From IMG/VR virus record IMGVR_UViG_3300019776_000574, positions 1 through 57,057 of that record: a stretch of DNA of 57,057 nucleotides, one strand, 5' to 3'. A program made the position numbers and the translations under genes. The DNA comes from a virus. Positions 3,358 to 49,671 of this stretch are shown piece by piece (position 1 is the first letter of the stretch; every line of letters starts with the position of its first letter). The notes beneath the pieces were generated by a model. It was given only the letters and a program-made list of their open reading frames with translations. It searched no databases and was not told where the DNA came from.

Positions 3358-5580
3358 CTACTCCGTGAATGCGTGGCCATCACTGGCCCGGCCTGGCGGT
3401 TCAACCAAAGGCTCGGCTACCTGTGTTATGCCGGTGAGTTCCTTCTGTACCCGGAGTTTCATCGACTCCTTGGCCAGTTCAGCCTTGACCTGATCGAGTG
3501 CAATATTGCGCTTGTTGGCATAATCCAGCAGGGCGAGTTCCCGCTTAATGTTCAGCTCTTGAATACGGACGGAGGCCGTGGTCTGGTCTCGCTGTGCCAT
3601 GGCCTCGACGTAAGCCGTGTCCCGATCGGTATCGACCTCCATCTTGCGGAGACCGGTCTGAGCCATGACCTTGGTTTTCCACCGCTCGGTTTCGTCGCGG
3701 ATCTTCGCCACCTCGATTGCCGGCACGACGGGAGCGGGGAGGCTCTTTTTCTTTTGTTCGTCCATCGTCCATTTGTCCGGAACGAACCGCTTGGCCTTCA
3801 GGACTTCGACCATGGCCTTTTCCGGATCCAGACCATAGGCCGGGTTCATGGATAACTGCAGCAATACCATGGACTCCATGGCCTGAATTTCGCGCTCGAC
3901 CAGGGCAGTGGATCCCACCGCCTCTATCTTCAGATCACCCTTGGCATTCTCGGGGCCGTGCATCAGCAGCCACTCGTAGTACCGGCGGATGTGCGGCTCG
4001 GTAATGCACTCGTCGAACACCCTGGCTATCCGGCGAAGTATGGTCGAAGCGTTCTGGTGAAGAAGCTGCATGCCCCCGACCGTATCCGGCGCTGATCCCT
4101 GCTGCCCCTGCATGATGAAGAAAATACCGGTGGAATCCTCCATCATCTTGTAGGCAAGTTCGATGATAGCCATCAGTTCGGCCTGCATCATCGGGATATT
4201 GATAGCGGTGAAGGCGTCGGCTACGGATTTAACGTCTGCGTTGTCGGATGCCCACCAGATCTTGCCGCCCCGTAATTCCCACACACCATCTGCCGGGCTG
4301 ATTGCATTGCGTCTGACGATAACCTGTGGGGCAGCTGATAGACCTGCGTTGTCCATCAGCCGGCGGGCGCCTGCGTTCAGCATGTCCTGGGGGGTGCGCC
4401 CCTGCCTGGCCACACCGACACCCCACGGGCTACCCGGGGTCCGCTGCCACGGCATGAAGTCATAAGGGAACTCGCCAGAATCCAGCGGGTTAATGAACGC
4501 CTTGATAGGTGTCTCGTTTACAAGAGTGACCACCGCCGGCAGTTCCCGCTTTGCGCTGTCCTTTGCCTCGATCTCCACCGACATTGCCGACAGGCCAACC
4601 GTGTCAACCATGCCGTAGAAGTACCAGACCTCGAACTTGTCATCTTCGGCGGTTTGATCCTCGGCGTTGCGGTAGCCATCAGAGTAGTTCTTTTTGTTCG
4701 GCCCCTCGTCGATTACCTTATCGATCTGGTCGTCAAGGTACCCCGGGAGGCCTTTGAGGTTCTTCAACTGCTTGGCCGTCAGGCGGTCTCGCTCAAGGAA
4801 GTAGCTGCCGTTGTGGATGCTGTCGCCACAATTCGGATCCGGGAAGCCGTCCCATGGGTCTATGCTCCGGCTCCCCGGCTGGGTCTTGGTAATAATCTCC
4901 ATGCCGACCTGGCCGCCCCGCGTGGTTGTCCTGCGGGTTGTGACCTTATCGGGGAACGGTCCCTTGAGAATACCGGTACCAAGCTTGGCCGAATTCTCGA
5001 TTACCTTGCGAGCCTCGCCGTGGTACTGGCATTCGGTCAGCCAGTCGTGTATCTGAGTTTCCGCAATGCCGGCCTTCTGTGTGGCAATGGCCTGCTGCTG
5101 CTTAAAGTACTCGTCCGACGCAACACCCTCGGGCGGGGTGTCCTGAAGGGGGGTGGGCTTGACTGCAAAGTTCCAGTCTCCGGACGGTAAGAGGATGTCC
5201 CCCATCCTCGCGGCGGCAGAGTCAACGAACTGGCGGGTGATGTTGAAGAAGGAACTACAGCGGGTCGATGATTTCTGCGGGGTCCGGCTGATACCCCCTG
5301 TGGTGGATGCCGATTTCACCCATGGATGGGAATCGCGGTTGGCGTCGTCAACGCCCTGGTAATACTCCTCGTCTTCCTGCCAGATCGTTTCTATGCCGGA
5401 CTGCTTGCGTCCCTTGACCGCCTCGTCGCGCTTCTTGGCAACGTCCTTGCCTATCGTCTCGATCTTGGCGAGCTGGTTCGCCCGCATCTCTTCGATGAGA
5501 TCCTGGAGTTCGGGGGGTAGTTCGTCGGTCGGTATTCCCCGTACGGTCGCAAGATTTGCCGGATCCATGTCATTTCGCAT
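3358..5580 (-). CDS. Portal protein (head-to-tail connector)
   Basis: The 740-residue protein has the length and helix-rich C-terminal barrel expected of a large podovirus portal. The N-terminal 60 residues are charged and helical, the middle contains the portal core with DPWDGFPDPN near residue 240 and MPWQRTPGSPWGVGVARQGR near residue 390, and the last 120 residues are helical with long Lys/Glu runs. It forms the dodecameric ring through which DNA enters and to which the tail adaptor binds. The ATG at 5580 is only about 15 bases after an intrinsic terminator, with GGAG in between. The gene order terminase, portal, scaffold and capsid supports the call. Confidence 0.88.
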   Translation of the reverse strand: MRNDMDPANLATVRGIPTDELPPELQDLIEEMRANQLAKIETIGKDVAKKRDEAVKGRKQSGIETIWQEDEEYYQGVDDANRDSHPWVKSASTTGGISRTPQKSSTRCSSFFNITRQFVDSAAARMGDILLPSGDWNFAVKPTPLQDTPPEGVASDEYFKQQQAIATQKAGIAETQIHDWLTECQYHGEARKVIENSAKLGTGILKGPFPDKVTTRRTTTRGGQVGMEIITKTQPGSRSIDPWDGFPDPNCGDSIHNGSYFLERDRLTAKQLKNLKGLPGYLDDQIDKVIDEGPNKKNYSDGYRNAEDQTAEDDKFEVWYFYGMVDTVGLSAMSVEIEAKDSAKRELPAVVTLVNETPIKAFINPLDSGEFPYDFMPWQRTPGSPWGVGVARQGRTPQDMLNAGARRLMDNAGLSAAPQVIVRRNAISPADGVWELRGGKIWWASDNADVKSVADAFTAINIPMMQAELMAIIELAYKMMEDSTGIFFIMQGQQGSAPDTVGGMQLLHQNASTILRRIARVFDECITEPHIRRYYEWLLMHGPENAKGDLKIEAVGSTALVEREIQAMESMVLLQLSMNPAYGLDPEKAMVEVLKAKRFVPDKWTMDEQKKKSLPAPVVPAIEVAKIRDETERWKTKVMAQTGLRKMEVDTDRDTAYVEAMAQRDQTTASVRIQELNIKRELALLDYANKRNIALDQVKAELAKESMKLRVQKELTGITQVAEPLVEPPGRASDGHAFTE

Positions 5581-37683: not shown

Positions 37684-40600
37684 CTATTTCCCTTTCTTCA
37701 ACTCAAATCGCTGAATGAGGCGGTCGTAAATTTTCTCTTCCTGCCGTTCGAGTTCCTTGGTGCGAGTCCGCTTCTCGACTATGCTCAACGTGTCATCCAG
37801 CCGAATAGCATCGATAGCGTCCCGCTTCGCCTTGGCAAGCTTGGCCTGCTGATCGGCTATCTTGGCGACGGCCAGCAAGTCCGCATTCTCTACCTTCAGT
37901 TTGCCGGCGGTCTCGAAGTCGCGGGCCTTCTTGGCGGAACGGTATTCCTCCGTGGCTTTATCGGCATCCTTGGCTATTTCCCAGAATATGCGCCGGGTAT
38001 CCCTGACAGTGTTCTCCCGAGCCAGTACACTGGCTATGGGGATCTCTGCCGTCTCAGGGATGCCGTCATTCGCCACGACCGTACCCAGATCCACCACCTG
38101 GCCGATGAACGTAGCAGCACCACCCAGGATGGAACGGGTGTAGAATTTCAGAACTTCCGGGGAGATATCGATCGCCCCAGCGCTGTACTTCGTCCCCCCG
38201 GTTGCTTCATTGATCACGGAGGCGGCCGCGTCGTACATTGTGCCCTTGGTACCCCTCCACATATTCTGCGAATCAGGCTTGCCCTCGGAGTCTTTCTCTG
38301 GGGCGATGGGATTGCCGAAACTATTCAGGTTCATGGTCGGCGCCAGAATCATCTTGGGGACGGTCGGCATTATCGCCAGCGGCTGCAGTTGTCCATCGTC
38401 AGTCACCGGATTGCCGATAGCCGACAGTCCGTCGAGTATCGTACTCGCCAGATTCAGCCCCGTGCGCTTGTCGGCCTTGCCGTGCACCATGTCGTTTATG
38501 GCGTAACCAATCCCCACGAACGAACCGTATTCATACGGCAGCGGGATGGTTACCTGCGATTTATCCCCGGTCCTGATCACCAGGTTCCGGTTCTTCGTGC
38601 TGCGGGGCACCTTCTCCCATTCGTCGTCATCACCACCACCCAGCATCCTGGCCCACTCGGCGGCCAGGAATCCGACCAGCGCCATCGATCCTACCAACGC
38701 CTGCGCCTGGCGCCTGTGCTCGCTCTGTGACAGGGCAAACCATGTCCGGTTGATACCCTGGATAGCCGGGTTGTAGAACAGCCAGAGAGCTCCGATCTGT
38801 GCGCCCCACTCGCCGCGCTTGTCAAAGTTGATGGTTGAGTTCTTCGCCGCCTCGCCGGCCTCTGCCTCGCTTTTGCCTTCTTCCACTAAGGTCATGAACG
38901 TGGATACCCGAAAGGCGTTTTCACTCACGGCATTCATCGTCTCGATCATCTTCAGGAAGTGACCGAGCACGGGGACCTTGTGAAATTGCGAGATACCGGA
39001 CTTGGCCAGGGCCACAGTCCGCGCCGCCATGTCAGATCGCCCCTTTGCCTTCTCTTCAGCGAACACGCTGTTGTATGCGGCGATGGCACTGACCTGCTCC
39101 CGGTATACCTTCCGGATATCCTCCCCCACCCGCTCCATGGAGTTCAGGTATGACGCTCCAGTCGATCCACCCTGCTTGCGGTACCGGTTCACCCATTGCG
39201 ACTTGGTGGGGTCGTGCCTCGCCTTCATGAACTCGCGGACGGCGCGGGGGTAATTCAGCGCGATCTTTGCTGCAGTGGCTGTACCGTAGTCACCGGTCAG
39301 GTTCACCATGCCGGCGGTGAAGTCCCGGAACGTGTTCCGAATGGTAAACCGGGGGTCATACCCCGTGTAGACTCGCGACAGGTAATTATTGATCTGCTTG
39401 CCGACCATGAGCAGGGAGTGCAGGTGCTCCTCCCCCATGCCGGTCAGCGCCTTGGCCGCAATATCGTCGTTGATCTGGATGCGGACCTGGTGGCCGTTGA
39501 TGTAGGCGTTGATTTCGTTCTCGCCCAGCATCGGAGTGGTGACCCATGCAACGGTGGGATCACTGGAGGCGTGGATTACGAAATCCTCCAGGTCGCTCTT
39601 GTCCGGTTTCATCTGCTGGTCGATGTACCGCTCTGCTTCGGCGTCGGTGGAAAATGCCGCCACCGGCTCGCGCTGATAGAAAACCGTGTACTGCGGCTTG
39701 TTCTTGAATACCCGGCGCTTCTCGGGCTTACCAATGGTGCCGATCTGGTCGTCTTGTGCCTCGTGGATCAGTTGCGCTACCGACAGGGAGACGTTGTTCT
39801 TTTCGATGGTCTTGACGGCCGCCTCCCGGGCCTTGATGATGTTCTCCAGGACGTACTCATCGCGCAGTCCGTGGCCACTCCGGCGCTGCTGCTTGCCGGA
39901 TACTCGGAGGCCTTTGCCGGTGCGGGGCTCGTTGCCTTCGCCACGGACGGGAACGTAATGCCGGTAGGCGTTATTCCATGCCTCCCGCATCTCGTCGGAG
40001 ATGATGCCGGCATTCTGTAGCATGTCTGCCGTTTCCCCGCTGAATGCCTGCCACCGGTCGGCCAGTTTCTTGAACTCGGGGAAGTCGGGACGGGCCTTGT
40101 ACTCGGCCAGTTTCTGCTTTGCGTCGGCATCGGTGACACCGAACGCCAGGGCGTCGGGGTTGTCGTGCAGTTTGCGCATGGCGGCGTTGGCCTCGGCGGT
40201 GTGCTGCATCAAGAGGTAATCGCTGATGTCGTCCAGGTCGATCTTGTGTTGCGCTGCCTCTTTAATCAACGGGGCAACCTGATTGTCCATGAAGCGCTTG
40301 AGATGGTCGGCAATCTTGCCGTTCATGGTGTAGATGCCGCGGGCGGCGTTGGCCAGTTCGGAGAGCCTGACACCCTGCTGGTCGAGCCAGTCCTGCAGGA
40401 CCTGCACCCGGTTGTAGCGGTCTTGAAGTTTCCGCCAGGCGCGTTGGGTGGCGGTTTCTTCGGGGAGCGCGCTGGGTTTCTTCAGAGAGAACTTGCTGGT
40501 GATATTTACGTCCTCGTCGCTGAAAATTACGTAGTTGTAATTCGCGGCGGGGTCATCTTCCCATGCGATAGATGCTTTGCCGTAGTCCTCCTCGTATGAA

Positions 40601-43600
40601 TCTGCAAGGATTTGTGCTTGCTCTTTGGATTTAAGGGTGTCGGTTGACTTCTTACCATTCGCCCAAGTTACCCGGTATCCACCATTGTTCCGACTCGTCC
40701 CGTCCAGGTACTTGATGCCACGGATGCCGAGGGAGTGGAGGTAGGAGGAGGCCCATGTCTCATCAGGGTCGGGCCGAATTGCCCCATTGCTTTTTTCTGC
40801 TAGTTCTCTTCCTCGCCCTTTGGCGATTTCTCTATACAGTGTGCTGCCAAGTTTGAATTTGTCTATCTCAGCGGGGTCACTTGTGTTTCTTGCCCTTTCC
40901 AAGTAAGAATCGAGATTGCCAAGATACGGTGATTCCTTCAGCGCCTCCTTCACCTTCTCGCTCTGCTCACTCAGCGGCTTGTCCCACAGCAGGTATTCAT
41001 CCTCGGCCGGGGCTAGTTCGACTTGGTAGAGACGGCCCCTGGCTTGCTTTCTAAGACCATCTATCACCTCTTGCAGTTTTGTGGTGTCGAGATCGCGGAG
41101 ACTTGCCTTACGGTTCTGAACCTGTTTTGCAGTCAAGGCGTCCTTGCTTGCTGCCGCAAAAAATATCTCGGCCCGCTCATCACCATCAAACTCTCTGCCG
41201 GGGAATGAGTTTTCAAGTGTGTCACGAATCGGCAAACCACGCCCCCCACGACTTCCCGACAGCGCGTCCCGATAATACTCCGCTACATCCTTATTCCCCG
41301 CGAAGTACAATCCATACCCGTAAGCCTGCGCCCCCTCGCCGGTGCCTATCTGCGAAGTCTTGAACTTCTCGAAGTCATGCGGCGAACCATGCCAGGCTGT
41401 CATGAACTGCGTACCAGCCGCCGGCACCGCCACCCCCTGCGCGTTCCGCTTCAGCTTTCCCGACATCAGATCATTGAAAACATCATCAGCCGTGCGCCAG
41501 CCCTGCCCCTGGAACAGTCCCTTGACCTTGCGGATAAACGCCTTGATACGGTCGAACAGGAGGCGGGCGTAGCCCTTGGCAATCTGCTTGCCGGCCACAT
41601 GGTCAGCGAAGGCATCAGCGCGCCGCTCCGAACTGGCCACCCCATCCTTGGCCGGATACTGCCTCTCCAGGATGCCGATGTCCTTTGCCGACAGCAGCCC
41701 GAGGGATTCAGCGGCGTGCTGCACTTCATGGTAGCCCGTGCGGTCGGTGGCGCCGTCCATGGCCAGGGTAATTATCGACCGAACCTCGCCCGTGGTGATG
41801 TTCTTCACCGACTGGTGCATGCCGGCAATGTTGCCACTGGTTTTCCCGTGGGCGCCCCATGCCTGTTTGGCATCCTCGGGCGGGGAAATGTGGTCGACTA
41901 TGTTGAGCGTGACCTTGCCGCCGGGGAGGGCCTGGGCAATGAGGGATTGGACGCGGTTGATGGCTTCAGCATTGAGAACCCGCGTGCCAGAGCCAACTGA
42001 TTCCCATCCGGTCGAAAACTGCGTCTCTCCCGGCACCCCCTCCAGCGCCGCCACAAAAGCGTCCCTATTCTCAGCCGTACCGAAATGGAACCCGCGGATT
42101 GCCCCGGCCCCGTTGAATCCGGAATAGTGTCCGCTGTGTCGCTTCGCCAGGGTAAGGGCGGCCTTGTAATCGGCATCGTTCAGTTTGCGCTGCACCGTGG
42201 CTACGTAGATGGGGGCACCGGTCTTGGTGTGGTTGAACTGGGCGGATACCACGCCGTCGACATTCGGGGGAGCGGGGAGCGGGGCACCGCTGACGGTGGT
42301 TGCTTCCGGGAGTTTGGCCCCGCGGCTTGACAGTATCTCGGCAACACCCGACTCTGCCGGAGCCTCTGGAACGATCCTATCCGGCACGCTCGCATCTTGA
42401 ATGCGGTCAAAAAAACCCTTGATGGTCGTCTCATCAGTCCAGTCACGCAGAATCTGCGGCGTGGTGCCGTTCTTGTCCAACACCACCACGCGGGTCATTA
42501 CCGCCGTGCCTGCCCGCTCAAAGGTGACGGACGGAAGGAGGTAGGAGGCGGTGAGCTGCATGTCGTTTGCTGCGCGTTTCTCGCGCTTGCCCTTGGCCTC
42601 GATGCCGGAAAGCCGGGTTGTGGGTACCGGCATGTGTTGGCCGTTCGGAAGCTTGATGTGCGCGTACTTCTCGGTTGAACTGGAATCAATGACCTTCGTG
42701 ATAGTCACCTTGACGCGCTGCTCGAAGATACCTGACTTGCGCTGCTCTGCCGGATCAAGGTAAAAGTTCGCAGTATCCCCTGAGTAGATCGGCTGACCGG
42801 CAATCGATCCGACCGGCTCCACCGGTTGCACATCCTCCTCATACAGCCACTTGTCGAACTTCTTATCAGCCGCCGGCCCGGTGGGAATGATCGCCACTAT
42901 TCGGCCGCCGTCCTTCAGGTGCTTCGCGGCCTTAGCCAGATGGTCGACGGCCGTGCGACCGCCAGACCCGAAAGGCGGATTCATCACGATGGCGTTGTAC
43001 TTATTGACGATGTTGTGATCTTCGAACGTGCCTTGCACCAGATCCCCGTCGAACACCAAGGCGGCACGGCTGGCCAGCTCAAGAGATGGCTCTATCATTC
43101 TCCTCTTGGCATCCTCGGGGAACCAGCGGGCAATGGCGCCGTGGCCGCCAGATGGCTCCAAAACCGAATCACCCGAGCGGATACCAGCCCACTCCACCAT
43201 CTTGAGCCCCAGCGGTTCGGGAGTGGCGAAGTAATCAGCTCCGACGTCGTTCTGTCGGCCTTTCTTCTGGCCAAAATAGAATGCCGTGGCCCGGTCCCAC
43301 TCGGTCAAGGCGGAATTCGCCAGACGGTCCCGCTCCTTGCCGCCGGTGCCTTCCCCCTCATGACCAGCCGGGTAGGTGTCGGACTCCTGGAATCCCTCAA
43401 TGAACGCGTCACGGAGAGCCCGGGCCGACTCGCCCAGCGCCAGGTTTTCGGCGGCACTGGTCCGGTTGGCAATCGTGGTGGCAAATGCGTACCGCTCCCA
43501 GTTCGTGCCGGTGTTGAGGTACCGGAACATGGCGTTGCTGGCCTGCCCTATGCGGTAGGTGCGGCCTTCCTGCTGAATGGATGTTACGGGCTTCGTCGGC

Positions 43601-46600
43601 AGCCCCAGGTTGAACGTGACTCGCTGGGCGCTCCCCGTCGTATCGTGGAGAGAAATACCCGCCTTGCCGGCATCGGATTGAACGATGATCACCTTGCGCG
43701 GGTCGTTGTCGTCCTGGAACGCCTGGATTGCCGCCTTGCGGTTCTTGGCTGTCTCGGTGCCGTTGATGATCAGGATGTCGGGGAAGGCCTTCTGCAGCGC
43801 AACTAGGGGCGATGGGAGCCTCCCCAGATCCATTTTGATCAGGTCCGGACGGGCGGCCATAAATTCGCGCACGGTTTCCCCGACCGTTGTCGTTACCGGC
43901 TGGCTGGAACCATCTGGGTAGTAGCTGAAGGTTCCGGTATCCGCCTGGAGCCCCGTCACATCGAACGGGTTGAACCCGCCGCCCTTGTTGAAATCGTGGA
44001 ACACGACAACCTGCCGGCCAAGGGCGAGATGATCCTTGATTAGCGGTATGACCGCCTCCGCCTTGATGGCCTCCAGCAGATACCGGCGGGAGAGGTGGTC
44101 AAACTTGGCTTGCACTGCCTTAGCCACTGCCCCCATGCGGCGGTTGTCTTGCAGATACTTCAGGCCGTCGTCAATCTTCGACCCGATGGCCGAATCAATC
44201 AGCACGAACTTCCGATCATAATCCGAATCCACGTCGAGGATCCGCCCGGAAAGCACCCCCTGCCGCTTCAGCCAGGCGTTAAACTGGCGCTGCATGATGC
44301 CGCGGTCTACCTCGGGAGGCGGTTCGGTCAGCTTGTTGTAGCGCATCCGGTAGCCGAAATGCTGCATCATGAAGCGGTCGTAGTTGTTCCCGGAGTTGTA
44401 CCGCTGGCTGTTGACTTCCGGCCCGTAGCTGAACAGGTACCCCTCGGCGTAATCAATCGATTTCTCATAGGCAAACGGGGTGGCAGAGAGGAACGCAACG
44501 CGGGTCCGGTTCTCGCCCTGTGCTGCCTGGACATCGGCGCGGGTTTTCTTGAGGACGGCCTGCCATTCCTGGTCAATAGCGTTGGCCTTTTTCTCCAGGG
44601 ATTCGGCGGGAAGTTTCAGTTTGCGGGCTTCATTCAGGGCGGCATAGGCCTTCCTGCGGCGTTCGGCCAGGTCGGGGTGCAGCATCTCTGCACGCTGGTA
44701 CGCACCACCAGGATGGAGGGACAGCGCCTGCAGCGCCTTGGATGCCAGGGAGGGGTTGCCGTCTTTGTTGGAGGAAAGGTTATCGGCCTCGTCGGTGATG
44801 ATCAGATCCCAGTTCCGCCGGGCAAGGCTGGTGTTCTGGCCTAAATTGGCATAGGTGGTGATAACCGCCCCGCTGCCGCCGTTGTCCTTGGTGTCGTTCA
44901 GCTTCTTGAGATCGAGCAGGTTCAGGTTCTTGCCGAGGGTGACCCATGCCGCAATGATATCCTGGTTCGGGGCGACGATGAGGATATTCTTTTTGCCCTT
45001 GTTGACGAACCGGCGGGCGATGCCCAGGCCGAGAGCAGTCTTGCCGGTGCCGGTACCGTTGGTGAACATGACCCCGTAGCCGTCCGGCTGACTAAACCGT
45101 GCCTCGGCAAAGGCCACGTCCTCGCGCTGGCCCGGGTGGAGCTGCGGCAGGTCGGCGTCAATGCTACCCTTCGCGGCCTTTACTGGTACAGGTCGCTCAA
45201 CAGTTTTTGCAACTGCTTCTGCTGAGACGGATTCAGCAGGTATTCCAGCGTCCCCAGCATCACCGCTTCGTTCACGCTCGTCACTTCCGGCAGGCTCTGC
45301 CTCAGTTCCGGATCGTTCTTTTCTTCCACGAACCGGCTTATCGCTTCGTTCTCCAGGAGTAGCGGTTTCAGGTCGAGGAAGGAGAGAATCAGCATCTGGT
45401 TCAAACCCCTCTTGCGAAGTGTCTTGCACTCGCTGGAGTGATTCGCTATCAGTCCCTCCTGGTCGAGGCTGAATGTCCTCTTGGCCCAAGGCGTCTTGAG
45501 TTGCTGCGTCTTGGCTATCTCGTTCCAGATCGCCGCGTTCACCATCGGTTTCTCCTCCCTCCAGTATTGTACCATTGCGCTCGGCGTCGGCAAGCTCGCC
45601 GTAGAACTTCAGGGCGAACGGTTTGATCTTGGCGCCGAACTTGTCGATCAGTTGCTTTGCGAATGCCTGCGCTGCTTCCTTGAACGAGAAGCCGGCCGCC
45701 CGGATTTCCGACCACATGGTTACCAGGTGCGGCTTGAGCCGCTGGTATGTCTCGTCGTCGAAAGCTGGCCCACTGCCCAGCTTGTTCGGGTCGGTGATGC
45801 CCTTGAATATCTCGTTGATGGCGTCGGCGCCAGCGTCCACCGCCTTGACTATGTGGTCTTGCATGGATACGGGCTTGGCATCGAACAGCCCCGCCGGTTC
45901 CGGGGTGAATGCGTCCATCAGGTCGGACGTACTGGCCCGTTTGCCGCCTTGCTTCTGCACGCCGCCGATGGTCGGGGCGCGTTTGTCGCCCTTGACTGCT
46001 ACGTCCTGTTTCCAGTCGGATGCGTCGGTGGTGGGTGCCGGATCATAATAATTGCGTCCCGTAGCATAAAGAGGCTCCGTGCGAGTCGCGTCTGATGCCG
46101 GCTGGAAATCTGGATTTACGTTGAAGGATATTATTGAATCGGCGTTGACCTCTGCCTTTCCGTTTACGATGGGCGCGACGTTCACGATATTGTGGCGGGC
46201 CTGCATCACAAGGTATTCTCGGCCGGTACCATCGGTAACTATGCTGCCATTACCGGGGTGCTTGTCGGGCGTTATCTTGTCGGCGGTGTCAGTCTCACCC
46301 CCCGCCTCATCCAGCATCCTCTCAAAATCATCTACGCTGGGTATTTCTTCCCGCGCAGCTCCAACATCTTCTTGGCTGCCTTCAAAACCTGCACTCTCTC
46401 TCGCGGTTTCAGCACCTGCAGTGCGGCCCGTATCTTCGTTTTCGCTGGCAATTTCATCAGCTACCCCCTGTTCGGCAATGATCTGGTCAAAGAAATCGAA
46501 CACGTCGGCGCGGTCGGCCTCTGATACCTCAGATTCTACCACATCCAGTACCGTATTCAATGCCTGCTGTTGCTGTTCGTTAAATTCGTCGAGCAGTCGG

Positions 46601-49600
46601 TCCTCGTACTCCTTTGCCATGCGGTCGGCTTCGCTGTCAAGGTCCCGCTCGGTCGAGATGGTGGCGCGCCCCCGTGTGTGGCTGTCGATGGCGTCGAACA
46701 GGTCGTTGATGCCGGCACTTTCCGGCAGGTAACCGTGACCGACCAGCGTTTCCCGCATCTGGTCGAGGGGTAGCCCGGTCTTCTTGAATACGTGACCGAA
46801 CCGCCGGGTTTGCGTCAGAACGTGCTTGGCCAGATCCTTGGCGTTATCCTTGACGAGCGAGCCCCATTCCCGGGACGCCTGCGCGGTGTCGATGCCGCCG
46901 AGCTTGGAGATGGCGACGATGATGTCGTCCTTCTGGCGGTCGACCTTCGGGGCAGGTTTGGCAGGCTTTGTCTGGATGGTGGCGGCCGTGGACTCGGGTT
47001 GGGGCGCTGGTCTCACCAACGGCTTCAGGATGCTCGGGACCACCTTTGGCTGTTCTTCGCCGAACAGGTACATTTCCGCTGAATCCTTGTCGGACTGTGA
47101 CGGTTTGTCCCGGTTGCGCTTGAACTGCGGTAGATTGAAATCGTCCCCCCTGGCCTCGGCCTCGGCAATGGCATTGTCCATGAACCACTGAGCAACGCGC
47201 TTCTCGGAGGCGGACGCCTTGCCATTGGTGGAGAAATCGAACTTCGGAAAAGGGGTCGTTTTCCTGCCGCTGGCCGTCGTGACCACTTCACCGATTGCCA
47301 GTTTGCCACCTATCTCGCCCCGTTTTACCTCGCCTTCTTTCTTGCCGAGTTGCTTCGCCTTGGTTGCCATGGTGGAGGGGGCGGGCTGTGCTACTGGTGC
47401 TTCTCCTGCAAGTATCGCCCTGGCTTGCTTCATTGCATCAGCAAATGGAAGATGGTTCGGAAGGGCGTCTTTCACAAGTCGTTCGGCTATTCTGTTCGCT
47501 GATTGCGGCTTTTCCGGTACGGCTGCTTGTACGTTCGGCTCACTGGGTCCCCCTATCGGCGGAGCCTGGAAATCCTGATAAGCTGCCTCACCGCCGATGA
47601 TCTGGTTGTACTGGTCAAGCTGGATCTGCAGTTGCATCGCCCGGGCGCTCTCCGGGTCGACGGTGGCCAACTCGGAAACAACCTGCTGCTTGGCGGCGAT
47701 GGCATCCTCTCGGGAGATTTGCGGGATACCGGACGGCACCGGTGCCTGCCCCGGCAATGGGGAAATGTCACCAAACCTTGCGTTGATGATGCCGGTTGGA
47801 TCTCCGTTTGCCCCCGTGACGAGGTGAATAGTTTCGTTGTTCGATGCCTCTGGGTAATTGTTCATTGCCCTGGCGTTCTGTAATGCCGCCTGCTGCATAC
47901 CCTCGGGTGTGCCGTCATGCGGGGTGACTTCGTAGCCAAGAACTTGACCATTAAGTCCGTTCACTTGGGTGATTATGCTGTTCGGAGGAGTCGGACGTTG
48001 TGGCACCGCTACCGGCGCGGCTTCGCTGGCCTGACCGACGAGGTTAGTTTCTGGCTGGCTTTCGGGCACCGGTGCAGGGGTGGGCCTGCTACCAACAGGA
48101 GAGAATTCACCCACGTTGCTCGCCGGGAGGTCAACAACCGGCGCGGCAGGTACGGGGAGCGCTCCCGTCTCACGTCCTGCTGCCATCTGGCTGGCCAGCA
48201 GAGGGTCGGCTTGATTCCGTTCGACGTCTTCAAGCGCGTCTCGGCTCAGTACCGTATCTCCGGCAAAGGTCCGGTTGAGATCCACTGCCCGCTGTTCGTC
48301 AGGGAGAAGCTCACCACCGAGGGCCGGCTGACCGGTGAACTGTTCACGCATTGCCGCCCGGGCCGGGTCAAGAAATGCAGTATTGATTTCATCGGCGGTA
48401 CTGACTGCCGTGGGCGCGACGGCGGCCGGCGCGGCAACCTCGCCACCCAGTTCCTGCAGCAACCGCTCCTGTTCCTGGCGGGTCCATCCGGCGGATACCT
48501 CGGCGTTGGCCTGGGCGATTGCGTCGTCTACGGATACGCTCGCATCGGTTATGCCGGTGTCGGGAATGGGTACGTCTGTGGTCGGCTTGCGGCGCATTGA
48601 CTCCAGGCGCTGGCGGATAACATTGACGCCACCGGTTTCGGCAACAAGGTTCATACTGCCACCCATGCCCATGCCGGCTACTAAGCCTTGTGCTGCAGCC
48701 TTGCCGATGCCTTCGTCCCACGGCTTGCCCAACGCCAGATTGGTAAAGACCTGTTCCTGCGCGGACTGTGGCAATTCCTCAAGAACGCCTTCTTTAAACA
48801 TCCCCTTGGCGATTTCTTTGCCGGAAGCAAGAATGGCCCTGGTTGATGATCCACTCAGACCTGTTGTTGCTGCAGCAACCTCGGCGTCTCTCAGCCCCGG
48901 TATCTTTGACGTGCCAACCCCTATTGCTGACGTGATGAGCCCGCCACCCAATGCCGGGGCTACAGTTTGCGTCCAATCTTTCCCCGCTTGGCGGCCTTGC
49001 TCCTGGATGCTGCCAGCAGTTAACGCACCTTCTGTCCCGGATGACGCAGCAATCAACGCTGTCTGCACTTTTGGATCGGCAAAGAATTTTGTTGCTGCTG
49101 CGGTCCCCGGCTGGATACCAGCCTTGGCCAGCATGCCCACTGCGACCCTACGGGCTACCGCTGCACTCCCTATGGACATGGGGGCCGATTCAACGATGTT
49201 TCCGAACGCAACTGATGGGTTATCTACCAGTGCTGAGAGTGTATCAACAAACCCCTTTGCCTTCTCAACTTCCAGATTTGCAGCCTGACGTTCAGGGCTG
49301 TATCCGCTGGATATGATTTGTTTGGTGGTTTCAGGGTCATAGCCAATAGCCGCCAGACCCTTGCCTGCCAAGTTGCCCGTTGCTATATCCGCTACACCGA
49401 CAACTGACTCACCGAGACCTACTACCCCCTTGGCGAGATCCATGGCCGTATCTTTTGCAAAGCTTGGTGCACGGGCGGCCACGGAGCGGTCAGACGGCGA
49501 AGCAATCCCCATGGTCGATATGGGTTTTTCCTGAAAGGTGGGAGTGGATGACATCTTGCCGGCGGCGTCGAACACCTCGGCAAGATCTGATTCGGTTGGA

Positions 49601-49671
49601 GGGTTGGGATCATTCCAGTCAAACGTAATCGTCCGTTTGGTGGCGTTGTCGAAAACAGTGTACTCAGCCAT
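37684..49671 (-). CDS. Giant polyvalent protein, 3,995 aa
   Basis: This single frame fills a fifth of the genome. N-terminal residues 50-360 are Gly/Ala-rich and partly hydrophobic. A disordered region follows. A SNF2-like helicase has Walker A GTGTGKT near 1540, DEAD at 1627 and QQEGRTYRIGQ near 1960. An adenine-methylase-like domain has VLEPSGGHG near 2165 and NPPFGSGG at 2231. A zincin-like HEVQH is at 2648. An ADP-ribosyltransferase-like domain (AWHGSPHDF, YGYGLYFAG) starts near 2760. The C-terminal 900 residues match large polyvalent-associated domains (LPD38 type). Such proteins are thought to be packaged and injected with the DNA to counter host defence. It lies among internal virion genes. 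Confidence 0.88.
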   Translation of the reverse strand: MAEYTVFDNATKRTITFDWNDPNPPTESDLAEVFDAAGKMSSTPTFQEKPISTMGIASPSDRSVAARAPSFAKDTAMDLAKGVVGLGESVVGVADIATGNLAGKGLAAIGYDPETTKQIISSGYSPERQAANLEVEKAKGFVDTLSALVDNPSVAFGNIVESAPMSIGSAAVARRVAVGMLAKAGIQPGTAAATKFFADPKVQTALIAASSGTEGALTAGSIQEQGRQAGKDWTQTVAPALGGGLITSAIGVGTSKIPGLRDAEVAAATTGLSGSSTRAILASGKEIAKGMFKEGVLEELPQSAQEQVFTNLALGKPWDEGIGKAAAQGLVAGMGMGGSMNLVAETGGVNVIRQRLESMRRKPTTDVPIPDTGITDASVSVDDAIAQANAEVSAGWTRQEQERLLQELGGEVAAPAAVAPTAVSTADEINTAFLDPARAAMREQFTGQPALGGELLPDEQRAVDLNRTFAGDTVLSRDALEDVERNQADPLLASQMAAGRETGALPVPAAPVVDLPASNVGEFSPVGSRPTPAPVPESQPETNLVGQASEAAPVAVPQRPTPPNSIITQVNGLNGQVLGYEVTPHDGTPEGMQQAALQNARAMNNYPEASNNETIHLVTGANGDPTGIINARFGDISPLPGQAPVPSGIPQISREDAIAAKQQVVSELATVDPESARAMQLQIQLDQYNQIIGGEAAYQDFQAPPIGGPSEPNVQAAVPEKPQSANRIAERLVKDALPNHLPFADAMKQARAILAGEAPVAQPAPSTMATKAKQLGKKEGEVKRGEIGGKLAIGEVVTTASGRKTTPFPKFDFSTNGKASASEKRVAQWFMDNAIAEAEARGDDFNLPQFKRNRDKPSQSDKDSAEMYLFGEEQPKVVPSILKPLVRPAPQPESTAATIQTKPAKPAPKVDRQKDDIIVAISKLGGIDTAQASREWGSLVKDNAKDLAKHVLTQTRRFGHVFKKTGLPLDQMRETLVGHGYLPESAGINDLFDAIDSHTRGRATISTERDLDSEADRMAKEYEDRLLDEFNEQQQQALNTVLDVVESEVSEADRADVFDFFDQIIAEQGVADEIASENEDTGRTAGAETARESAGFEGSQEDVGAAREEIPSVDDFERMLDEAGGETDTADKITPDKHPGNGSIVTDGTGREYLVMQARHNIVNVAPIVNGKAEVNADSIISFNVNPDFQPASDATRTEPLYATGRNYYDPAPTTDASDWKQDVAVKGDKRAPTIGGVQKQGGKRASTSDLMDAFTPEPAGLFDAKPVSMQDHIVKAVDAGADAINEIFKGITDPNKLGSGPAFDDETYQRLKPHLVTMWSEIRAAGFSFKEAAQAFAKQLIDKFGAKIKPFALKFYGELADAERNGTILEGGETDGERGDLERDSQDAATQDALGQEDIQPRPGGTDSESLQRVQDTSQEGFEPDADSLLPRPETATPGERSDKPVRGRKERSGTEAEPAGSDERERSGDAGDAGIPAESVSAEAVAKTVERPVPVKAAKGSIDADLPQLHPGQREDVAFAEARFSQPDGYGVMFTNGTGTGKTALGLGIARRFVNKGKKNILIVAPNQDIIAAWVTLGKNLNLLDLKKLNDTKDNGGSGAVITTYANLGQNTSLARRNWDLIITDEADNLSSNKDGNPSLASKALQALSLHPGGAYQRAEMLHPDLAERRRKAYAALNEARKLKLPAESLEKKANAIDQEWQAVLKKTRADVQAAQGENRTRVAFLSATPFAYEKSIDYAEGYLFSYGPEVNSQRYNSGNNYDRFMMQHFGYRMRYNKLTEPPPEVDRGIMQRQFNAWLKRQGVLSGRILDVDSDYDRKFVLIDSAIGSKIDDGLKYLQDNRRMGAVAKAVQAKFDHLSRRYLLEAIKAEAVIPLIKDHLALGRQVVVFHDFNKGGGFNPFDVTGLQADTGTFSYYPDGSSQPVTTTVGETVREFMAARPDLIKMDLGRLPSPLVALQKAFPDILIINGTETAKNRKAAIQAFQDDNDPRKVIIVQSDAGKAGISLHDTTGSAQRVTFNLGLPTKPVTSIQQEGRTYRIGQASNAMFRYLNTGTNWERYAFATTIANRTSAAENLALGESARALRDAFIEGFQESDTYPAGHEGEGTGGKERDRLANSALTEWDRATAFYFGQKKGRQNDVGADYFATPEPLGLKMVEWAGIRSGDSVLEPSGGHGAIARWFPEDAKRRMIEPSLELASRAALVFDGDLVQGTFEDHNIVNKYNAIVMNPPFGSGGRTAVDHLAKAAKHLKDGGRIVAIIPTGPAADKKFDKWLYEEDVQPVEPVGSIAGQPIYSGDTANFYLDPAEQRKSGIFEQRVKVTITKVIDSSSTEKYAHIKLPNGQHMPVPTTRLSGIEAKGKREKRAANDMQLTASYLLPSVTFERAGTAVMTRVVVLDKNGTTPQILRDWTDETTIKGFFDRIQDASVPDRIVPEAPAESGVAEILSSRGAKLPEATTVSGAPLPAPPNVDGVVSAQFNHTKTGAPIYVATVQRKLNDADYKAALTLAKRHSGHYSGFNGAGAIRGFHFGTAENRDAFVAALEGVPGETQFSTGWESVGSGTRVLNAEAINRVQSLIAQALPGGKVTLNIVDHISPPEDAKQAWGAHGKTSGNIAGMHQSVKNITTGEVRSIITLAMDGATDRTGYHEVQHAAESLGLLSAKDIGILERQYPAKDGVASSERRADAFADHVAGKQIAKGYARLLFDRIKAFIRKVKGLFQGQGWRTADDVFNDLMSGKLKRNAQGVAVPAAGTQFMTAWHGSPHDFEKFKTSQIGTGEGAQAYGYGLYFAGNKDVAEYYRDALSGSRGGRGLPIRDTLENSFPGREFDGDERAEIFFAAASKDALTAKQVQNRKASLRDLDTTKLQEVIDGLRKQARGRLYQVELAPAEDEYLLWDKPLSEQSEKVKEALKESPYLGNLDSYLERARNTSDPAEIDKFKLGSTLYREIAKGRGRELAEKSNGAIRPDPDETWASSYLHSLGIRGIKYLDGTSRNNGGYRVTWANGKKSTDTLKSKEQAQILADSYEEDYGKASIAWEDDPAANYNYVIFSDEDVNITSKFSLKKPSALPEETATQRAWRKLQDRYNRVQVLQDWLDQQGVRLSELANAARGIYTMNGKIADHLKRFMDNQVAPLIKEAAQHKIDLDDISDYLLMQHTAEANAAMRKLHDNPDALAFGVTDADAKQKLAEYKARPDFPEFKKLADRWQAFSGETADMLQNAGIISDEMREAWNNAYRHYVPVRGEGNEPRTGKGLRVSGKQQRRSGHGLRDEYVLENIIKAREAAVKTIEKNNVSLSVAQLIHEAQDDQIGTIGKPEKRRVFKNKPQYTVFYQREPVAAFSTDAEAERYIDQQMKPDKSDLEDFVIHASSDPTVAWVTTPMLGENEINAYINGHQVRIQINDDIAAKALTGMGEEHLHSLLMVGKQINNYLSRVYTGYDPRFTIRNTFRDFTAGMVNLTGDYGTATAAKIALNYPRAVREFMKARHDPTKSQWVNRYRKQGGSTGASYLNSMERVGEDIRKVYREQVSAIAAYNSVFAEEKAKGRSDMAARTVALAKSGISQFHKVPVLGHFLKMIETMNAVSENAFRVSTFMTLVEEGKSEAEAGEAAKNSTINFDKRGEWGAQIGALWLFYNPAIQGINRTWFALSQSEHRRQAQALVGSMALVGFLAAEWARMLGGGDDDEWEKVPRSTKNRNLVIRTGDKSQVTIPLPYEYGSFVGIGYAINDMVHGKADKRTGLNLASTILDGLSAIGNPVTDDGQLQPLAIMPTVPKMILAPTMNLNSFGNPIAPEKDSEGKPDSQNMWRGTKGTMYDAAASVINEATGGTKYSAGAIDISPEVLKFYTRSILGGAATFIGQVVDLGTVVANDGIPETAEIPIASVLARENTVRDTRRIFWEIAKDADKATEEYRSAKKARDFETAGKLKVENADLLAVAKIADQQAKLAKAKRDAIDAIRLDDTLSIVEKRTRTKELERQEEKIYDRLIQRFELKKGK
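45180..45545 (-). CDS. Nested gene inside the giant polyvalent gene, 121 aa
   Basis: An ATG at 45545 with GGAGGGAGGAGAAACCG upstream opens a 121-residue frame shifted relative to the giant gene. The product (MVNAAIWNEIAKTQQLKTPW to the end QLQKLLSDLYQ) is balanced in composition and predicted helical, with many Leu, Glu and Lys. In the same stretch the giant protein is low-complexity (Glu, Asp, Gly, Ser, Pro, Arg), as expected when another frame is under selection. It ends just before the helicase domain. No family was recognised. Confidence 0.6.
   Translation of the reverse strand: MVNAAIWNEIAKTQQLKTPWAKRTFSLDQEGLIANHSSECKTLRKRGLNQMLILSFLDLKPLLLENEAISRFVEEKNDPELRQSLPEVTSVNEAVMLGTLEYLLNPSQQKQLQKLLSDLYQ

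Follow-up and report, generated by a model that had tools for sequence, protein, structure and literature searches.

The window analysed here, a virus record, comprises 57,057 bases and carries on its minus strand a giant DarB-like gene with a second, much smaller open reading frame nested within it. The features referred to below are as follows.

37684..49671, minus strand: giant DarB-like/polyvalent gene, 3995 aa, frame 0, with the Pfam domains LPD38, Helicase_C_4 and ResIII
45552..45558, minus strand: Shine-Dalgarno sequence GGAGGAG, 6 nt 5' of the nested ATG, assigned from the sequence and from family-wide enrichment
45180..45545, minus strand: family-A nested gene encoding 121 aa from an ATG, read in +1 with respect to the giant gene
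43300..45180, minus strand: segment of the giant gene lying immediately 3' of the nested gene and opening with a helicase domain of the SNF2/SF2 type
42886..43014, minus strand: weak methyltransferase (MTS) match, giant residues 2220-2262, E 5e-4, below Pfam's curated cut-off
38038..38628, minus strand: LPD38 polyvalent-protein domain, giant residues 3682-3878 (Pfam)

The giant protein was matched by Pfam above cut-off to LPD38 (1.8e-29), Helicase_C_4 (6e-10) and ResIII (2e-8), and with LPD38 and a helicase it is a large multidomain protein of the polyvalent/DarB-like kind. The MTS region falls inside the alignment of the window giant with that of Serratia phage Parlo, and might, on this weak match, represent the second half of a methylase-helicase dyad. 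The N-terminal 224 residues of the giant had no match among phage records. A related DarB-like giant, JC1 gp69, has been found to be virion-associated by mass spectrometry (PMC9144972).

The nested frame begins with the ATG at 45545, runs for 121 codons and closes with a stop ending at 45180, thereby spanning giant codons ~1375-1497, just ahead of the helicase part, in the +1 frame relative to ORF 37684-49671. The preliminary description had singled out this 121-residue frame for its good ribosome binding site, and the ATG is indeed preceded directly by GGAGGGAGGAGAAACCG. Two alternative in-frame starts lie upstream, ATG 45575 and TTG 45593; the start at 45545 was preferred on the basis of the family alignment and the Shine-Dalgarno sequence. 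The same description had regarded the giant peptide as compositionally biased over this stretch, and across 125 homologues the residues ILMFWVYC made up 11% of the giant frame compared with 32% of the nested frame. The giant frame here reads as a hydrophilic linker, little constrained in sequence, and the nested frame as a constrained one that is predicted to fold. An open frame of this length is not in itself remarkable, since the +1 frame stayed open over the nested stretch in 40% of 2000 redraws in which synonymous codons were drawn from the same giant gene (P(open) 0.40). A claim of significance from the single ORF of the window was therefore dropped, and the case for the nested gene is made from comparative evidence only.

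When 50,697 phage records were searched by tblastn with the nested protein as query, 8 records matched, which come from six different phages (Klebsiella ZX1, Ruegeria 45A6, Pseudomonas Skulduggery, Serratia Parlo, Vibrio D274 and Vibrio 1.232.O) at 30-40% identity, and in all six the match lay in the +1 frame of an annotated giant gene. The giant was the sole annotated feature under the match in the 8 records, family A itself being unannotated. Three other family-A members used as queries retrieved the same 8 records, as did the helicase segment of the giant, which found exactly these and no others, and likewise a Vibrio helicase. Three mutually overlapping scans of IMG/VR with family A gave 2, 37 and 42 loci; contigs from GTDB gave 3, and among plasmids a single Comamonas replicon carried family A, also in the +1 frame. 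In all 46 entries (the window and 45 loci, several of them repeats of one contig) and in 10 of 10 further loci, the nested frame lay +1 within a longer frame that stays open for 1,457 codons or more. Relatives of the 121-residue protein are thus found both in phage records and in IMG/VR, always +1 in a giant gene.

Loci were also recruited through the helicase, a procedure blind to the nested gene, which yielded 23 loci and then the best 80 of 244, with some contigs common to both. The nested-family HMM matched 102 of these 103 loci; all 102 matches were on the plus strand, in the +1 frame, covered by an open giant frame and located 9-645 nt before the helicase match, and in the one locus without a match, which is truncated, the sequence starts only 2 nt ahead of the helicase match. 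No case was seen of a nested frame broken by stops while the giant frame was intact. A more distant helicase scan (best 80 of 240, 79 of them new) showed family A in 67 loci, 66 of which had the usual arrangement; in the remaining one, L199, the giant shifts frame just downstream, with the nested gene keeping its +1 relation to the N-terminal portion of the giant. The 12 of these 79 loci that lacked family A were compact stand-alone helicase genes of ~850 codons (L200, L201, L202, L204-L206, L209, L212-L214, L217 and L218), which are possibly ancestors or escapees of the module in the giant. None of the 12 had a family-A copy nearby or elsewhere in its own viral record, several of these records possibly being fragments. 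Free-standing copies of family A were found in none of the phages, plasmids, IMG/VR or 399 bacterial genomes of one family that were searched; a locus from the search of those bacterial genomes, L355, is also nested +1. A divergent member of the family, at L258:~3390-3848, is without the usual N-terminal motif or a recognisable start, under an intact giant frame.

The relation between the two frames allows selection on each to be read from the positions of the giant codon, as the second codon position of the nested frame is the wobble position of the giant and is therefore expected to evolve slowest if the nested frame is constrained. Among 126 distinct sequences, pairs of 90-98.5% identity differed at giant positions 1, 2 and 3 in the nested stretch at 0.109, 0.050 and 0.041, compared with 0.063, 0.046 and 0.209 in the downstream flank. 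Of the three positions, the giant wobble was thus the slowest to change within the nested stretch and the fastest in the flank. This inversion was present in 6 of 6 identity bins, and in every bin the nested frame had the greater amino-acid identity of the two, with the qualification that lower-identity pairs were aligned by the nested protein, so that their alignment leans towards the nested frame; the inversion was repeated in 48 gapless pairs for which no alignment was used. The pair bins are not independent, and a test on disjoint pairs was made alongside: in the nested stretch all 51 informative pairs (one tie; p 9e-16) showed less change at giant position 3 than at position 1, compared with 1 of 52 in the flank. 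L258 was excluded from the gapless-pair and disjoint-pair tests. A scan of eight genomes along the ~4000-codon giant gave a ratio of position 3 to positions 1+2 that fell to 0.09 in the nested stretch, to which the strong inversion was restricted. The drop in synonymous variation that had been predicted for 45180-45545 is therefore strong and lies in exactly that stretch; together with the unbroken nested frames, it supports the earlier proposal of overprinting in a linker ahead of the SNF2-type helicase, and the rates point to purifying selection specific to the nested frame. Another 45-codon window in these giants (L021, L024, L025, L029, L030, L032, L033 and L039), 1114 codons before the nested start, showed a marginal dip to 0.55, which could be noise or another overlapping element.

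The start signals of family A were analysed after deduplication by nested nucleotide sequence, which reduced 148 sequences to 104 (126 in the rate set). The start codon was ATG in 103 of the 104 and GTG in one, starts having been taken as the in-frame ATG (else GTG/TTG) near the model start, a choice that favours ATG and was also made for the rate set and for family B. At L048, a locus from a Bacteroidales MAG, a GTG start follows AAGGAGG. Ahead of 88% of the 104 starts there was a Shine-Dalgarno match of 4 nt or more, compared with 18% of 2150 control ATGs taken downstream in the same frame (Fisher p 7e-52). A stop in the nested frame stood directly before the ATG in 14 of the 104 sequences and no more than 10 codons before it in 41.

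A second family of nested genes came to light in the comparison of Klebsiella phages ZX1 and LASTA, both classed as Lastavirus. The two giants can be aligned closely as far as '...DDMVAQFD-EVTPN', whose codons contain a Shine-Dalgarno sequence and nested ATG common to both phages, and diverge thereafter. LASTA has neither the A-type helicase nor family A; instead, a different +1 ORF of 108 codons, family B, runs from the corresponding ATG. Family B (L274:5824-6150 and L287-L353) was found in 21 phage records and 67 IMG/VR loci, and its giants include those of LASTA, PEp14, Pavtok, POI1126, Atu_ph08, VvAW1, Itty13 and Mwe-JY07, among others. It was nested +1 in 65 of the 67 IMG/VR loci; of the other two, one ends at a contig edge under an open giant frame, and in the other the giant frame is interrupted locally. 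Disjoint pairs of family B gave the same selection signature in 25 of 28 informative cases compared with 0 of 28 in the flank (L353, L295, L309 and L329 being excluded from the rate counts), and all 61 distinct sequences had a Shine-Dalgarno match of 4 nt or longer. The family is weakly TnpV-like and is matched by the end of PHROG 938; its Pfam score for TnpV, 18.0 bits, lies under the gathering cut-off of 27. A comparison of families A and B by hhalign found no homology (probability 0.5%). Two family-B loci deserve mention for their own sake. In L283 (PBC5), at ~4733-5309, the N-terminal giant frame runs without a break into that of family B and the methylase frame opens separately, an arrangement that would fit a natural fusion, a frameshift or an old sequencing error. 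In L282 (Pseudomonas phage Itty13), CDSs are annotated opposite an open frame of more than 3,400 codons that carries family B, and the annotation looks wrong-stranded.

Families A and B never occurred in one locus: none of 125 loci with A, these being the 126 entries of the rate set less the window, and none of 76 with B. All 125 loci with A contained the A-type helicase and none of the 76 with B did, which is to be read as pairing at the locus and not as independent recruitment, given that most A loci were recruited by the A-type helicase or lie next to it, and B loci were recruited by B alone. Sequence comparison thus showed a fixed place before the methylase-helicase module, occupied by the unrelated family B when the module differs. 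In the Bcep22-like phages the DarB giants contain a third +1 ORF, preceded by AAGGAGG and encoding 107 aa (L277:5089-5412) with matches in 8 records, which may be a distant member of family B. P1 darB had no counterpart of the nested gene.

The family-A protein was modelled with AlphaFold2 from a 32-sequence alignment as a compact protein of eight helices (mean pLDDT 94.6, pTM 0.86); a second model was less confident (pLDDT 84.2). Searches with the nested protein gave no match in Pfam, NCBIfam or PADLOC, a best E of 0.3 in PHROG and only E 0.64 in a sequence profile search of the PDB, and a scan of all 32 members of the set A2 against families gave scattered weak matches only (best E 0.0079). 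Fold searches with the two models reached E 2.5 (PDB) and 0.23 (BFVD) at best with Foldseek, and Z of at most 3.8 with VIA. Ten P1 proteins, including Ulx, DdrA and Hdf, showed no homology to the HMMs of families A and B (best E 0.037, for Hdf). Small acidic proteins of the Ocr/ArdA type act as DNA mimics against restriction. Such mimicry was judged unlikely here, as family A is not strongly acidic throughout: the window protein has a pI of 5.8, and the family a median of 5.1 with a 10th-90th percentile range of 4.3-8.1.

For the window ORF alone, the P(open) given above would leave room for a chance ORF whose apparent homology derives from conservation of the giant protein; the giant peptide is, however, the less conserved frame at every distance and the codon-position rates are inverted, so that this reading has a negligible probability, and 45180-45545 is almost certainly a real gene, as judged from sequence. 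Programmed frameshifting, in which ribosomes translating the giant would slip +1 to fuse its N-terminal part to the nested sequence, could draw on the constant +1 relation and on PBC5, in which the family-B frame continues from the N-terminal giant frame. Against this stand the near-universal ATG with its Shine-Dalgarno sequence, the nested-frame stops directly or closely upstream of it, and the onset of conservation at the ATG itself. As the upstream stops and the start signals favour internal initiation over frameshifting, we regard slippage as very improbable and internal initiation as the highly probable route to the nested product.

What the product does is a separate matter. The explanation that we favour overall, with somewhat better than even confidence, is a functional out-of-frame nested gene whose product partners the methylase-helicase dyad of the giant. 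Ribosomes would start at the internal ATG on the late message of the giant and yield, alongside it, a soluble helical protein of ~14 kDa, which may, less certainly, serve the neighbouring methylase-helicase part as its dedicated partner. Such a partner would most likely aid the folding, inactivity or virion loading of the dyad, much as P1 Ulx assists in localizing DarB. The partner role is proposed from position and co-variation, with neither homology to P1 Dar proteins nor a fold match behind it, and taken by itself we consider it evenly balanced; a role specifically in folding or loading is put forward more tentatively still. Overprinting itself fixes the position of a gene whatever its function, and a recombining downstream module would drag a neighbouring gene along, both of which count against a partner role. 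A real nested gene with a product independent of the giant, serving host take-over, counter-defence, lysis timing or assembly, would be trapped by overprinting and travel with the module in just this way; that A and B are unrelated would permit different jobs, and neither resembles a P1 Dar accessory protein. We nevertheless think this the less probable reading, although one to be taken seriously, for family A is absent from all 12 stand-alone helicase records, is never free-standing in the searches made, and gives up its slot to another nested gene when the dyad differs. The module-by-module pairing of nested family and dyad type would also suit a safety catch, by which the nested protein would keep the giant's helicase or methylase inhibited inside the producing cell, to be left behind or released at injection in the manner of an immunity protein, and the strong start site could permit its excess over the giant. 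This idea is, however, one that we infer, with no similarity to known families to sustain it, and it appears rather improbable.

Returning to the favoured reading of a dyad partner, the data could be accommodated by an 'overprint slot' at the hinge before the methylase-helicase module of DarB-like giants, where a conserved Shine-Dalgarno-ATG would start mutually exclusive, unrelated +1 genes (A, B and probably C in the Bcep22-like phages). The gene body would be exchanged with the module behind it, each giant carrying the partner that its module needs; we would not lean to either side on whether this holds. As to origin, the sequences would fit a giant frame that came to read through an older small gene, and birth of the nested gene inside the linker is possible, an option that is kept because no free-standing copy was found. 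Whichever applies, two unrelated nested genes in one slot provide a natural experiment on the birth and exchange of overprinted genes, and an overlapping gene has been kept in essentially all examined members of a widespread giant-gene family and missed in the phage records matched. If the nested product is a partner of the dyad, it would bear on a question raised for the Bcep22-like phages, in which, according to PMC9144972, P1 accessory Dar proteins have no identified homologues.

Through its LPD38 and helicase domains the window giant belongs with the DarB-like/polyvalent giants of Iyer et al. 2017 (PMC5512222), in the main text of which 'overlap' is absent and 'nested' is shown for a hairpin, so that no such gene is described there in these words. 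No description of nested or overlapping genes in DarB or polyvalent genes was found in the accessible portions of the open-licence literature, including PMC5512222, PMC13299392, PMC6606913 and PMC10052179, and one may thus exist unseen by us. Closest in the proposed action is P1 Ulx, listed as 'Aids DarB localization' in PMC9024508. Like family A it is a small protein encoded beside the DarB gene and would act similarly in the proposed model, but its gene is separate and adjacent, not nested, and it has no detected sequence similarity to family A or B. The nearest parallel in arrangement is offered by the spanins, and embedded spanin genes have been noted for Parlo itself (PMC6606913). Out-of-frame embedding of this kind has an example among phage genes in Rz1 and Rz. 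Rz1 lies inside Rz as an out-of-frame embedded gene, and common to both systems is a whole small gene, on the same strand and with its own start, in another frame of a larger gene. Here, in contrast, the host gene is a polyvalent gene of ~3,000-4,000 codons, the nested product is predicted to be a helical bundle, for which no known relative was found, and the slot can be filled by an unrelated gene.
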